A program made the position numbers and the translations under genes. Below, one piece after another: positions 3,107 to 47,664 of a DNA stretch of 47,664 nt. Below the pieces are notes generated by a model. It worked only from the letters and a program-made list of their open reading frames with translations, ran no database searches and was not told the DNA's origin. This DNA comes from Nitrospira sp. (lineage in GTDB: Bacteria; Nitrospirota; Nitrospiria; Nitrospirales; Nitrospiraceae). The DNA lies in NCBI GenBank assembly GCA_023248215.1, contig JAHFEW010000027.1:1-47664 (forward strand). Direction: 5' to 3'. How positions within the stretch are numbered: position 1 is the first letter of the stretch; every line of letters starts with the position of its first letter.

Positions 3107-3586
3107 ATGACCAAAACTCACGACAAAGAAGATCAATATAAAGTGGTCGCCACCAACCGCAAGGCCTACCACGACTATTTCATCGAGGAGAAGTTCGAGG
3201 CTGGTGTCATCTTGCGGGGGACCGAGGTGAAATCCCTGCGAGAAGGACGGGTCAATCTGCAAGACAGCTATGCGTCGCTCGATGGCGACGAAGTCTATCT
3301 GCAGCATTGCCACATCAGCCCCTACTCGCATGGCAATCTTTCGAACCATGATCCCCTGCGTAAGCGAAAGCTCCTGCTCCATCGCAAGGAAATCAATAAG
3401 CTGATGGGGAAAACCCAACTGAAGGGCCTGACCCTCGTCCCCTTGCGCATCTACTTCTCGAAGCGCGGCCACGCGAAGGTGGAGTTAGCCTTGGCGAAGG
3501 GGAAAAAGCAATACGATCGTCGCGAAACCATTAAGGCCCGTGAAGCCAGCCGCGAAGTTGAACGGGCGATCAAACAAAAGAAGTAA
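3107..3586 (+). CDS. smpB: SsrA-binding protein SmpB
   Basis: SmpB binds the tRNA-like end of tmRNA and brings it to stalled ribosomes for trans-translation. The 159-residue protein has the usual length and motifs: an oligonucleotide-binding barrel with EAGVILRGTEVKSLREGRVNLQDSY, then RKLLLH and the YFSKRGHAKVELALAKGKKQYDRR region, and a basic C-terminal tail ending in KQKK that enters the decoding site. It diverges from the DUF721 gene with about 50 bases between the two ATGs. Its RNA partner ssrA is in the same window at 35692-36042, not adjacent as in many genomes. Confidence 0.97.
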   Translation: MTKTHDKEDQYKVVATNRKAYHDYFIEEKFEAGVILRGTEVKSLREGRVNLQDSYASLDGDEVYLQHCHISPYSHGNLSNHDPLRKRKLLLHRKEINKLMGKTQLKGLTLVPLRIYFSKRGHAKVELALAKGKKQYDRRETIKAREASREVERAIKQKK

Positions 3587-3845
3587 ACCGCTTCGTTCCT
3601 CGCGCGCTGCCAGGGGCGGCGACAGGTGTCGTGGACTCCCGGTCTCGCTTTGCCCTCCTCCCGTGCCTCATGTAGCCTCCGTGAGATCTCGGCTTCACTG
3701 GTGGTTCCTCAGTATTTCCAATCCAGGTAACCGTCCCGGCAAGGTCTTTCGTGGGCTTGCGAACCAGTCTCATTTGTCTCGAGAATCCTAACCGGTTGAC
3801 CCCCAAGAGCATTTCCGCCTACCCGTCGATGAGTAATATTTACGC
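3587..3845. other. Intergenic stretch without a recognisable gene
   Basis: Between the smpB stop and the DoxX promoter there are short open frames on both strands, but none has a Shine-Dalgarno, a recognisable motif or a plausible length. I see no terminator hairpin with a T-run. Confidence 0.5.
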
Positions 3846-3876
3846 TTGACTTGGTTCTAACTAGAACTATTATACT
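3846..3876 (+). promoter_or_regulatory. Promoter with embedded palindromic operator upstream of doxX
   Basis: TTGACT at 3846-3851 is followed by TATTAT (3868-3873) or TATACT (3871-3876), giving spacers of 16 or 19 bases. Between them lies a perfect 6+6 inverted repeat, GTTCTA-AC-TAGAAC, at 3854-3867. A dyad between -35 and -10 is a typical place for a repressor. The surroundings are strikingly A+T-rich for this window. Downstream genes (DoxX, pirins, FrnE) are often controlled by redox-sensing HxlR or MarR regulators, but no regulator gene lies nearby, so its identity is unknown. Confidence 0.6.
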
Positions 3877-3959
3877 GGGGTCAGCTTGGCCACGTTCCGC
3901 AAGGCGATCTCAGTGGGCAGAGTCGAGCGGTAAATGATCGATAACAGGAGGCTACCAAA

Positions 3960-4409
3960 ATGAAAGCACTATTCAACACAGACGACGGTTGGTCCGGCTT
4001 GATTCTGCGGCTGACATTGGGACTGGTGATGCTTCCCCACGGTGCCCAGAAATTGTTGGGCTGGTTCGGCGGCTTTGGGTTTGACGGAACGATGGGGTTC
4101 TTCACCCAAAAAATGGGGCTGCCTTGGATCATCGCCTTCCTGGTTATCATGGGAGAGTTTTTCGGCAGCCTGGGGTTGCTCGCCGGCTTCCTGACGCGAT
4201 TCACTGCCGCAAGCTTCATCGTCATCATGCTCGGGGCGATCGTCACCACGCACTGGCCGGTCGGGTTCTTCATGAACTGGTTCGGGCAACAACAGGGGGA
4301 AGGCTATGAGTATCATCTATTGGTGATCGGCATCGGCCTCGCGCTGTTGATGACGGGTGCCGGGAGATGGTCGATAGATCGACTCATCACGGAGAAGGTC
4401 GAGAGATAA
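3960..4409 (+). CDS. DoxX family membrane protein
   Basis: A 149-residue integral membrane protein with four hydrophobic segments and the DoxX signature (LILRLTLGLVMLPHGAQKLLGWFGG near the N-terminus, then GEFFGSLGLLAGFLTR). DoxX/DoxD proteins are linked to respiratory or thiol redox homeostasis; the exact reaction here is unknown. A clear AGGAGG Shine-Dalgarno precedes the ATG. The gene sits directly behind the palindrome-bearing promoter and 42 bases before the first pirin, so they are probably co-transcribed and induced by the same signal. Confidence 0.9.
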   Translation: MKALFNTDDGWSGLILRLTLGLVMLPHGAQKLLGWFGGFGFDGTMGFFTQKMGLPWIIAFLVIMGEFFGSLGLLAGFLTRFTAASFIVIMLGAIVTTHWPVGFFMNWFGQQQGEGYEYHLLVIGIGLALLMTGAGRWSIDRLITEKVER

Positions 4410-8554: not shown

Positions 8555-9004
8555 ATGAAGCCCGATCTGGATAAAGTCAACACTCTCGCGAAAGACTTCA
8601 GCAAAACCTACCCTCGCCACCCGCGCGAGATGCTCGGCGGCTATGTGATCGGCGCCCGCTGTGCGGACAAATGCCGGGCGTTCTTGCTCGGGATGAACGG
8701 AGAGTACAACTATTGGCCCTGTTCATTGGCGGGGCTGTGGTTCACGTTCACGGGCGTCACGCCGGAGCAGTTCAAGGAAGTCGTGGCCATCGGGGCGACC
8801 GACGAGGAACTCAGAGCCCACTCCAAGGTGCAGGACAAGCAGGCGATCATTCAGTGGAACAACCAGATGCGGGACATGCGTCTCTCCGAGATGACGCCGC
8901 AGGTGCAACCCTATATGGAAGACTCTATTCCACAGTATGGGCCCAAGCATCGTCCCGTCTATGCCTACTTCGACGTCTACGACCTCGAAGAGAAGCGGCT
9001 GTAA
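8555..9004 (+). CDS. DUF5069 family protein
   Basis: A 149-residue conserved protein. The N-terminal stretch with YPRHPREMLGGYVIGARCADKCRA matches the DUF5069 pattern (PRSPRE-type motif followed by a conserved D-K-CRA). Function is unknown. It has several aromatic residues and no signal peptide. A TAAGGAG Shine-Dalgarno precedes the ATG. It is followed 66 bases later by a DUF2630 gene and may form a two-gene unit with it. Confidence 0.75.
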   Translation: MKPDLDKVNTLAKDFSKTYPRHPREMLGGYVIGARCADKCRAFLLGMNGEYNYWPCSLAGLWFTFTGVTPEQFKEVVAIGATDEELRAHSKVQDKQAIIQWNNQMRDMRLSEMTPQVQPYMEDSIPQYGPKHRPVYAYFDVYDLEEKRL

Positions 9005-35691: not shown

Positions 35692-36042
35692 GGGGGCGAC
35701 CGGTTTCGACGGGGATACTGATGCCATCGTCGCATGTCGAGCTCTCGGGGTCTCGTAAATCCTCCGGGAAAATGCAACTGCCAATCAAGAACTGGCACTC
35801 GCAGCTTAATTTAAGCTGAGACGTCGTTCCATCTGAGGCCCGCGGGGGTGGAATGGCGCGATGCAGCGGGCTGGTCCAACGTCGGTGCTCAGCGGCGGTG
35901 GATGAGACAATACTGTGCTAGCGGCGATTCTAAGCCTGCCGATAGGCGTGGGTCGTTGCGAAACTCAAAGAATCGGCTACACATGTAGACGCGATGAGCC
36001 GACGATCTTCGGACAGGGGTTCAACTCCCCTCGCCTCCACCA
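35692..36042 (+). ncRNA. ssrA: Transfer-messenger RNA (tmRNA)
   Basis: A one-piece 351-base tmRNA. The 5' GGGGGCGACCGGTTTCGACG is the universal start; its first eight bases pair with TCGCCTCC before the 3' ACCA (36039-36042, CCA encoded). The T-arm is GGGGTTCAACTCCCC. The tag frame resumes at GCA 35774 and encodes ATANQELALAA, ending in TAA at 35807-35809. Together with SmpB it rescues stalled ribosomes and tags nascent chains for proteolysis. The promoter is not obvious, because repeat copy 3 lies directly upstream. Confidence 0.97.
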
Positions 36043-45712: not shown

Positions 45713-46165
45713 TTGACAGAGTTTTTCGAGGAGCGTAGATAGGATCTGCGGCCCAATTCCATCGTGGTCAGTGGGGGACCGGACAGACCGCGCGGCTGCC
45801 ATCTAGATCTCCCACGGAGTCCCCACAGAAGAGAGGAGGGTGGATGATGAACGATACGACTCCACCTGGCTCGTACGGCCCGCCGAGGTGAAGGCGGGCT
45901 TCTCGTCGGTCATGCTAGCCGGTTCTCCATCGGCTTTGCCACACGGTATCAAAGACGCGCTTGCCCATCATGGCGTCAAGCCAACTACTGGAGAGCCTCA
46001 TTGCCGACATGGGAACGTCGTGTTCATAGAGTAGACTGGTGTTTCCCGACCAGAAGCTTCTCCCCTTCAATGATTTCGGCGGGTCTCCTGCGGGCCGCGA
46101 CATCATGCGACAGCAATCGGCGTCCTAAGCGCCACGCACGGGCTCCCGTTCTCAGGGAGCCCGTG
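45713..46165 (+). ncRNA. Tandem RNA-gene candidate, unit A
   Basis: A 453-base unit. TTGACA (45713) is followed after 17 bases by a weak TAGATA. At +131 from TTGACA, GAGGAGGG precedes ATG ATG and a 16-codon frame (MMNDTTPPGSYGPPR, TGA). Then come a conserved block (GGCTTCTCGTCGGTC), GGGTCTCCTG, GGCGTCCTAAGCGCC and a strong terminal hairpin. Unit B repeats this order with nearly equal spacing. A conserved minus-strand peptide reading also exists and is less likely. Confidence 0.5.
46137..46165 (+). terminator. Terminal hairpin of unit A
   Basis: CACGGGCTCCC (46137-46147) pairs perfectly with GGGAGCCCGTG (46155-46165) around a seven-base loop. TTGT follows, so the T-run is weak. Confidence 0.7.
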
Positions 46166-46235
46166 TTGTATGGACTGTCTGAATAAGTTTTTCCACTCAG
46201 GAAATATGCAAATATGCCTAGGGCCAATTTTTCTA

Positions 46236-46689
46236 TTGACAGGATTTTCCAATGAGCGTAAGAGAAAAGCGTGACTCTATGACGCTGTGTTTACCGTGAC
46301 GAGGCGATGGACAGTGCGCGCCTGTTCGTGACACCTCGCCGCTCCTCAAACCGGGGAGGTTCACAGATGGAAGAACTTACGCCGCCGGACTAGAACGGCC
46401 CGCAGAGTTGAGGGTGGGCTTTTCGTCGGTCGCGTTTGCCGGTTCTTCGGTTGGCTTGTGCCTCATGGCACTGTCCGATTTATAGGATAACAGCCACTGG
46501 CAGTATCGAAGAACCGAGGTTAGACGCGAGGCACACCAGTATCCTGGGATATGACATCCCCTGACGAAAATCCTGACACCCGATCTTCTCGACCGGGTCT
46601 CCTGTTTATCACAATATAAATATTTGCCTCTTGGCGTCCCAAGCGCCATCCACGGGCGACCTCCCACCGTAGTGAAGGGTCGCCCGTGG
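46236..46689 (+). ncRNA. Tandem RNA-gene candidate, unit B
   Basis: A 454-base unit collinear with unit A. TTGACA (46236) is followed by TTTTCC and GAGCGTAAGA as in A. GGGGAGG precedes ATG at +131, exactly as in A, opening MEELTPPD with TAG. Then GGCTTTTCGTCGGTC, GGGTCTCCTG, GGCGTCCCAAGCGCC and a terminal hairpin follow. Overall similarity is low between these blocks, which suggests constraint on landmarks rather than a recent copy. Confidence 0.5.
46650..46689 (+). terminator. Terminal hairpin of unit B
   Basis: CCACGGGCGACC (46650-46661) pairs perfectly with GGTCGCCCGTGG (46678-46689) around a 16-base loop, followed by CATTTTGTG. Confidence 0.75.
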
Positions 46690-46964
46690 CATTTTGTGAA
46701 CCCTCATATTCCCCTGTTGTTCTATCCTTTAGCGCAGACCTTGCGGCCGGTGTGATCGGTGAGACGGCCATGCGAGACATCCTCATGAAGGCTGCCGATC
46801 GCTGCCAAATCGAGGTGCCCAATAGCGTCGCCCGTGTTGTAGCTCAGGGCAGAATAAGGGCTTCCTGAAGGTCCCCTCTCTGGTCGGTTCGTCACGAAGA
46901 GAGGCGTCGTGCGCGCGCCGATTCATTTGCCTGGCCAGCTGCGAAGGGGTAGAAGCCGGTGCGG

Positions 46965-47664
46965 TTAGATGCGATCCGGAAAGTCCGAGATAATTCCGTC
47001 GACGCCCAGATCGCGCATACGCCGAATGTCTGCCGGCTCATTGACGGTGTAGGTGAAGACCAGCCGTCCCAGGTTGTGGTAGGTCTGAAGCAGGGCGAGG
47101 GTGACGCTCGAAAAGTGAAGGCCTACATGAGAGGCTCGAACAGCCACAACATCGGCGACGGGGTCTCGCGGAAGGGTGCGCGGCAACAAGACCATGAGCT
47201 TGGCCAACGGATCGACCTGCCGAACGCGGTGCAGTTCATCTATCAGGAACGAGGCGTAAATGAGAGAATCGCGAAACCCGGTACGTTTCACGATCGCGCA
47301 AGCGTCGTTTCCAATCCCCTCCACTTTGAGCTCGAGAATCATCCCCATGTTGCCTGCGGCAATTTCGAGAGCCTCCTCCAGCGTGGGAATGCGCTGCCCA
47401 TTGCCCGCATCAAGCCGTTGTACTTGCTCAAGCGACATCCCAGCGACAGGCCCGGTTTTGTTGGTCGTGCGATCGATGGTGTCGTCGTGCAGCAGCACGA
47501 GATGGCCGTCGTTGGTTTCCCGCAGGTCGACTTCAATGAGATCCGCGTGGAAAAATCGGGCTTTCCAGATAGCGGCGAGGGTATTTTCAGGAGCGTGGCC
47601 GGCAGCTCCCCGATGACCGATGCGAAGGGTGGAAGCGATAGCGACCTCGTGTGAGTTGGTCTTG
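46965..47664 (-). CDS. Glycerophosphodiester phosphodiesterase (start outside window)
   Basis: A TIM-barrel GDPD enzyme that hydrolyses glycerophosphodiesters to glycerol 3-phosphate and an alcohol. The frame is open to the right edge: IGHRGAAGHAPENTLAA carries the catalytic HRG motif, DLIEVDLRETNDGHLVLLHD the metal-binding glutamates and catalytic histidine, and the C-terminal FTYTVNEPADIRRMRDLGVDGIISDFPD is complete. About 233 codons are visible; perhaps only a few N-terminal residues are missing. No signal peptide is visible, which fits the cytoplasmic UgpQ type. Confidence 0.93.
   Translation of the reverse strand, partial: KTNSHEVAIASTLRIGHRGAAGHAPENTLAAIWKARFFHADLIEVDLRETNDGHLVLLHDDTIDRTTNKTGPVAGMSLEQVQRLDAGNGQRIPTLEEALEIAAGNMGMILELKVEGIGNDACAIVKRTGFRDSLIYASFLIDELHRVRQVDPLAKLMVLLPRTLPRDPVADVVAVRASHVGLHFSSVTLALLQTYHNLGRLVFTYTVNEPADIRRMRDLGVDGIISDFPDRI

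Follow-up and report, generated by a model that had tools for sequence, protein, structure and literature searches.

Small RNAs with a translated leader ORF, such as attenuator RNAs of the rnTrpL type and dual-function sRNAs, may act in trans, and the tripeptide PPD is a ribosome-stalling motif of the same kind as PPG. Stalling at PPG is relieved by EF-P, and the available part of the study coupling EF-P-dependent PPX pausing to transcription describes motifs inserted in reporters and mentions no natural stand-alone RNA of such a design (PMC5021804). In MgtL, the leader of mgtA, early acidic residues together with proline cause intrinsic ribosome destabilization: at low Mg2+ the ribosome drops off, by which the conformation of the mRNA is changed (PMC11282234, available part).

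We analysed a stretch of 47,664 nt from Nitrospira sp. (the window; assembly GCA_023248215.1, contig JAHFEW010000027.1), whose 3' part contains two collinear units on the plus strand, unit 1 at 45713-46168 and unit 2 at 46236-46696 (Table 1). The units resemble RNAs of the rnTrpL type and dual-function sRNAs in being small RNAs with a leader ORF and possible action in trans, and they are unlike these in having no operon parent, a far longer conserved fold and a different peptide. With MgtL they share a very short ORF in which acidic and proline residues come early, and in MgtL the behaviour of the ribosome is read out through RNA conformation; however, the motif is diprolyl PP[G/D] in the units and EPDP in MgtL, and MgtL controls the downstream mgtA via Rho, whereas the units are two stand-alone RNAs without a downstream gene (PMC11282234, available part). 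PPG, a documented stall motif of the EF-P system (PMC5021804, available part), is found at codons 6-8 of one class of the ORF, type 1. tmRNA and RNase P RNA are likewise conserved RNAs of 350-430 nt, and tmRNA also has a short reading frame; however, both are present elsewhere in the genome and the units match neither RF00023 (the only tmRNA of the window lies at 35692-36042) nor RF00010 (the one match of the genome is on contig C115).

Searches of the units against Rfam 15 at the gathering threshold returned nothing, and six loci from other genera gave no match. At a loose threshold, two minus-strand matches appeared (E 0.2 and 2.2), which were rejected as both lie below the gathering score. 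No description of the RNA or its leader peptide was recognised among the matches listed in the mainly open-access literature on Nitrospira or Nitrospirae and on the mechanism; Table 1 of a 2022 review gives three annotated sRNAs for Nitrospirae (PMC9029176, available part). The comparative data given below agree with the original prediction of an undescribed structured RNA gene family with a tiny ORF.

Table 1. Features of the two RNA units, in window coordinates
Feature	Positions	Strand	Remarks
Unit 1 putative promoter: TTGACA 45713-45718, 17-nt spacer, TAGATA 45736-45741	45713-45741	+	expected start near 45748
Unit 1 end-to-end helix: GCGGCCC with partner GGGCCGC at 46092-46098	45748-45754	+	7 bp
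Unit 1 5' domain hairpin: 45771-45778 with 45808-45815	45771-45815	+	8-bp helix
Unit 1 Shine-Dalgarno GGAGGG	45835-45840	+	within a hairpin that has the PP codons in its 3' arm
Unit 1 micro-ORF MNDTTPPGSYGPPR, stop TGA	45847-45891	+	apparent codon-level constraint, codons 2-8
Unit 1 strand A GGCCCGCCGAG, ORF nt 31-41	45877-45887	+	predicted to pair with distal strand C
Unit 1 strand C TCGGCGGGTC, distal partner of A	46076-46085	+	overlaps the GGGTCTCCTG block
Unit 1 hairpin GGCGTCCTAAGCGCC	46119-46133	+	invariant in the genus save one C/T position
Unit 1 3' terminal hairpin: arms 46137-46147/46155-46165	46137-46168	+	11-bp arms, short T-containing tail
Unit 2 putative promoter: TTGACA 46236-46241, 17-nt spacer, TAAGAG	46236-46264	+	expected start near 46271
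Unit 2 Shine-Dalgarno GGGGAGG	46353-46359	+	consensus fold pairs it with codons of the ORF
Unit 2 micro-ORF MEELTPPD, stop TAG	46367-46393	+	kept in same-genus copies
Unit 2 strand A GGCCCGCAGAG, from ORF nt 31	46397-46407	+	past the stop codon
Unit 2 strand C: CTC 46588-46590 and CGGGTC 46594-46599	46588-46599	+	paired cells
Unit 2 hairpin GGCGTCCCAAGCGCC	46633-46647	+	same-genus alignment
Unit 2 3' terminal hairpin: arms 46650-46661/46678-46689	46650-46696	+	12-bp arms, CATTTTG tail

The two units align over 90 nt (blastn, E=1e-12), and most landmarks of the original prediction can be read directly in both: TTGACA with a T-run and GAGCGTA (at 45713 and 46236), a common 15-base element GGCGTCCYAAGCGCC (at 46119 and 46633), and perfect, fully paired terminal hairpins of 11 bp and 12 bp that differ in sequence. 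Two further landmarks stood in part. An ATG at +131 is present in both units, but the exact match is partly luck, because in the same-genus alignment the conserved start of unit 1 is the second ATG (45847, +134). The common block GGGTCTCCTG, whose first part supplies the 3' strand of a long-range helix, is present in both units, but relatives keep only about GGGUCU of it. Upstream of the pair are two DUF4412 genes and, further upstream, a PPK2 gene; the DUF4412 genes (PF14371; 44438-45328 and 45361-45648) are adjacent and lie directly before the RNA pair, the second being a short version. Neither unit has a regulated gene downstream in cis: what comes after unit 1 is unit 2, and the next large ORF beyond unit 2 (46965-47663) is convergent. 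TTGACA is invariant in the 23-genome alignments of both units and precedes 62 of 65 places in other genera (L111 not counted). As regards an independent transcript with its own promoter and 3' end, which a trans-acting sRNA would have, the units show conserved elements and boundaries, yet consensus scans reported no plus-strand promoter at either unit and no plus-strand terminator.

The tandem pair recurs in 22 of 24 same-genus relatives, each unit having strong homologues in 22 of the 24 (72-85% identity for unit 1, 76-83% for unit 2) with matches that span essentially the whole unit; in three relatives (G004, G006 and G015) unit 1 was matched in separate pieces, and unit 2 of G010, which runs into a contig end, was left out of the alignments. 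In G023 the two units are matched at 127413-127852 and 127930-128390. No convincing blastn match to either unit was found in G012 and G016, nor to the units in 16 relatives from other families. In 22 of 23 genomes the TTGACA elements of the two units are spaced 468-526 nt apart. The spacing is 1370 nt in one genome (L016, on G007:C1), where an inserted gene, read as a transposase, separates the units. In the phylum, the pattern GGCGTCCYAAGCGCC was found in 64 of 295 genomes, of which 63 are from the same family and one (G262) is from another family of the same order; the reversed control pattern hit 5. Other genera have one or two exact places each, mostly dispersed. From these 68 places 65 were used (two were not fetched and L111 is too near a contig end), and both the ORF and the 3' hairpin were present in 63 of the 65 by script and in L132 on reading, although the invariance of the hairpin in other genera is partly built in because it was the search key. 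L143 was removed from the alignments and L132 moved to a distant set.

A covariance-model search of relatives, which the original prediction had proposed, extended the family further. Model R1 covers the 100-nt ORF region and, with only 5 base pairs, is mostly sequence-driven; it matches 189 of 235 genomes of the order Nitrospirales, in 27 of 37 genera. In a phylum-wide sample, 64 of 245 genomes were matched at E <= 1e-4, every one in Nitrospirales. One R1 match (L218, E=2.8e-4) was dropped for having no PP peptide. A codon-shaped pattern with a Shine-Dalgarno box was found at 55 places in 84,980 species genomes, 54 of them titled Nitrospira, Nitrospiraceae, Nitrospirales or Nitrospirae and one Nitrosospira NOB2, a title that we take to be a mislabel. 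The RNA family is well supported by these comparisons, and the units are best read as two paralogues within it, each a stand-alone RNA gene; the family was observed here in Nitrospirales only. In two same-genus genomes, R1 also matches a third copy of the RNA on the minus strand (L061 on G014:C40 and L062 on G019:C18), whose ORF looks frame-disturbed by eye. Closely spaced copies are present in another genus (G143:C28 near 96073-96314; G235:C29 at 683569 and 684715), and the tandem arrangement may thus not be confined to the genus of the window.

The tiny ORFs with PP, which had been predicted for both units, keep this motif across copies. All 23 same-genus copies of unit 1 have the ORF stop at codon 15, and MEELTPPD is found in all 22 same-genus copies of unit 2, with the stop at codon 9 in 16 and at codon 15 in 6. 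The ORF in other genera has as a rule 23 codons and comes as type 1 (e.g., MDDTTPPGPSGPPIHGWVSRRSC) or type 2 (e.g., MEDLSPPDHNGPPSHGRASRQ[S/L]R); the ORFs of the two units, both shortened by stops, are similar to type 1 (unit 1) and to type 2 (unit 2). Two further families in Nitrospirales encode MEDLSPPKQ, MTDLSPPKK, MQDDTPPDQ, MEDLTPPDH and the like within a very different surrounding sequence. The consensus over the first eight or so codons is M-x-[D/E]-x-[T/S]-P-P-[G/D]. PP occupies codons 6-7 in 128 of 128 copies (108 of the family, 20 distant) and codon 3 is acidic in 127 of 128, in a set for which the ORF finder accepted only frames with PP among the first nine residues following a Shine-Dalgarno box and the distant copies were cut out by an expression with GA fixed at codon 3 and CC.CC at codons 6-7. 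The finder failed on 2 of 110 sequences, L132 (a real ORF with an unrecognised box) and L143 (no ORF); the 20 distant copies are 19 R1 loci and L132, and 4 of them are cis-type. The third bases of the PP codons vary synonymously (codon 6: CCA 108, CCG 16, CCC 3, CCT 1; codon 7: CCT 68, CCG 55, CCA 5; 128 copies).

Constraint at the protein level was tested by permuting alignment columns, keeping nucleotide divergence, and scoring amino-acid identity over the 128 copies, from which those found by the codon-shaped pattern were excluded. The observed identity of codons 2-8 was reached in 2 of 5000 trials. Of the same number of trials, 1979 reached it for the block of codons 9-14 and 1298 for that of codons 15-23, and the two shifted frames gave 4637 and 2447. 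Within groups, where the copies found by the codon-shaped pattern were included, the signal was weaker than over all 128 copies: 40 of 2000 trials for same-genus unit 1, 32 for other-genus type 1, 87 for type 2, and 607 for same-genus unit 2, a group with only two distinct sequences. As in MgtL, a short ORF thus appears to be under protein-level selection, at codons 2-8; that this selection covers about the first eight codons only is well supported by the alignments and favours a translated leader. An end of the signal near codon 8 is what would be expected of a nascent-chain signal, not of a functional 23-aa product. It is rather unlikely, in our view, that the family is a dual-function small RNA combining a short functional peptide (some 23 aa long in other genera) with base-pairing to mRNAs. 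Most other-genus copies used do have an ORF of 23 codons (with codon 24 as the stop in 30 of 35 type-1, 21 of 21 type-2 and 4 of 7 g12 copies), and many end in SRRSC, RQSR or similar; but no codon-level constraint was detected past codon 8, and the ORF is shortened to 8 or 14 codons in the genus of the window and to 9 codons in four distant copies, the sequence just past the stop remaining recognisable in the former.

Both units are predicted to fold stably (z = -3.1 for unit 1 and -4.9 for unit 2, with none of 100 shuffles as stable). The GCGGCCC/GGGCCGC helix of unit 1 is near-invariant, with 99.4% of cells paired over 23 genomes, and is formed in its own minimum-energy fold; the 5' domain hairpin has 6 varying pairs over 58 type-1 copies. 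Compensatory changes across relatives bear out the covariation-like character that had been noted for the terminal stems, and they are found in the terminal hairpin of unit 1. Terminal stem and 5' domain hairpin score highest for co-variation in a helix scan of type 1; from rank 3 down follow, with similar scores, a local hairpin of the ORF tail, inner helices and mutually incompatible helices. In type 2 the terminal stem alone stands out. A home-made tree-based covariation test found no significant pair among 92665 (type 1) and 87153 (type 2); as it missed even the terminal stem, we treat it as underpowered, and it gives no support. The conserved hairpin of both units reads GGCGUCCYAAGCGCC as RNA, and a C-rich stretch of the unit-2 terminal hairpin, CUCCCACC, is invariant in 22 aligned same-genus copies and may be a candidate for pairing with Shine-Dalgarno sequences. 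At one further locus, L143 (G219:C22), an AmoC gene (3245-4111; PF04896, E 8.4e-105) is followed by the GGCGTCCTAAGCGCC hairpin (at 8654) and a terminal hairpin with the rest of the RNA absent, which gives the impression that an ammonia monooxygenase transcript has borrowed the 3' module.

A long-range helix probably connects the ORF region with the 3' part of the RNA. Of the 108 family copies, 107 have its 5' strand, strand A, beginning at ORF nt 31, and the remaining one, L139, has none; among the 20 distant copies strand A begins at nt 31 or 32 in 13, the other 7 having a different sequence there. This position holds even behind stop codons, namely TAG at codon 9 in unit 2 and TAA at codon 10 in L216, L224 and L229. 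The best partner, strand C, starts some 41 nt ahead of the 3' hairpin (5th-95th percentile 33-53, within a 110-nt search stretch). For 37 distinct A strands, the predicted duplex has -16.3 kcal/mol with own and -14.3 kcal/mol with swapped partners, and in 0 of 20000 permutations was the own value reached, as also among 11 divergent copies alone, although part of the signal in these partner-swap tests could stem from common base composition. Nucleotide 41 is paired in 0.70 of own versus 0.35 of swapped pairs (maximum 0.49 in 200); over 120 copies its pairs are G-C 44, U-A 24, C-G 8, U-G 5 and A-U 3, with 36 unpaired. In L132 (AACCAGCTGCC with CGGCAGTTGGG) and L223 the sequence is changed and the pairing kept, and the own minimum-energy folds of both units form the helix. 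Other counts were less favourable. A hexamer-anchored pairing test was negative (0.81 versus 0.80 shuffled) over 120 of the 128 copies, 4 distant copies without a recognised 3' hairpin and the 4 cis-type copies being omitted. Within the genus, A and C are paired, yet there are no double changes; the paired cells of strand C in unit 2 amount to 99%, against 20-54% when slid, again with no double changes. The A-C helix is thus likely, though not proven by a standard covariation test. Strand A could also pair with the stretch directly downstream (strand B).

The reading we favour, with a probability of roughly 0.5, is that a ribosome pausing at PP[G/D] of the translated micro-ORF leader gates the folding of a trans-acting stand-alone RNA. 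Early acidic residues and the diprolyl motif would cause the ribosome to pause or drop off at codons 6-8, depending on the state of translation (EF-P activity, Mg2+ or similar); an EF-P gene is present in the same genome. A ribosome with codon 7 in its P site would cover the RNA roughly to nt 34-35, so that it would reach into strand A, mask it and block the A-C helix. The fixed distance from PP to strand A, even across a stop codon, would follow from this reach. The A-C state would in turn decide the active form of the central domain of about 200 nt and of the 3' hairpins, and the output would be the RNA itself as a trans-acting regulator. Geometry and complementarity, as seen in the position of strand A, the A-C swap tests and the pairing of nt 41, are consistent with the proposed gating, and leader control of the RNA, as originally proposed, is plausible in that it fits this geometry. 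Rather doubtful, by comparison, is a constitutive fold (a housekeeping RNA or RNP scaffold) whose micro-ORF merely protects the RNA or loads ribosomes and switches nothing. The stable folds of both units, the high conservation of unit 2 and the near-invariance of the 3' hairpin in the genus are consistent with it, but it leaves unexplained the protein-level selection on PP and D/E, the strict spacing to strand A and the cis copies before Usp genes.

These cis copies came to light through a third R1 match in the same genome (C133:58407-58506, E 2.5e-8), which codes for MEDLGPPDHDGPPL and has a Usp gene (PF00582, E 9e-13) downstream of it. Among the 55 pattern places, 37 have a recognised 3' hairpin, 8 precede a Usp gene, 2 precede a protein without a Pfam match, and 8 were assigned to neither class. 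A Usp gene stood behind 9 of 9 leaders checked by Pfam (L250 being tested as L226, on the same contig), so that the separate Usp copies, as MgtL, have a downstream gene in cis. In 7 of the 9 Usp leaders, which are distinct and diverge widely after codon 9, strand A is absent; the other two, L213 from the genome of the window and L226, keep it at nt 31. Gating through the A-C helix can therefore not be the sole use of the peptide. At the Usp loci the same leader would work in cis. Two leaders of the form MEDLTPPDHHG[P/L]PSHRRAPRQS (L260 and L276) precede a protein with a hydrophobic start (MKPRILQLLVFVL...) and no Pfam match.

The Usp copies raise the question of whether the units themselves might be cis leaders or attenuators, a downstream gene being read when the 3' hairpin fails to terminate. 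The same peptide start leads Usp genes, strand A could pair locally or distally, no consensus terminator was found, and an ORF read as pterin dehydratase recurs downstream on the same strand at two type-1-like loci (L104 and L110). We nevertheless regard this as improbable, as the large ORF that comes next after unit 2 is convergent, downstream neighbours vary over the 14 loci inspected, and both units retain their own TTGACA. A conserved minus-strand protein or decayed gene can practically be dismissed: a 96-aa minus-strand ORF overlaps unit 2, but its frame is open in only 8 of 22 relatives, with an out-of-frame length change in 14 of 22, and conservation tracks TTGACA, the stems and the micro-ORF, in agreement with the original claim that no protein of normal length fits.

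Returning to ribosome-gated folding of a trans-acting RNA, we suggest, more tentatively, a stand-alone RNA sensor of translation, in which a ribosome paused on the diprolyl motif (codons 6-8) would mask a fixed strand, the activity of the trans-acting RNA would report the EF-P, Mg2+ or stress state across Nitrospirales, and Usp genes would have recruited the leader module in cis. Nitrospira rank among the major nitrite oxidisers, and some of them oxidise ammonia fully. Judged from comparative sequence analysis, the family is a real RNA family of Nitrospirales for which no description was found among the literature matches listed and whose leader ORF appears to be under protein-level selection, and the gating mechanism is plausible. 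The RNA is conserved in most Nitrospirales genomes sampled, the first eight residues of its peptide being kept while the remainder drifts, and a model of the family could be added to annotation pipelines. The possible control of a stand-alone RNA by a nascent chain can here be put directly to the test.
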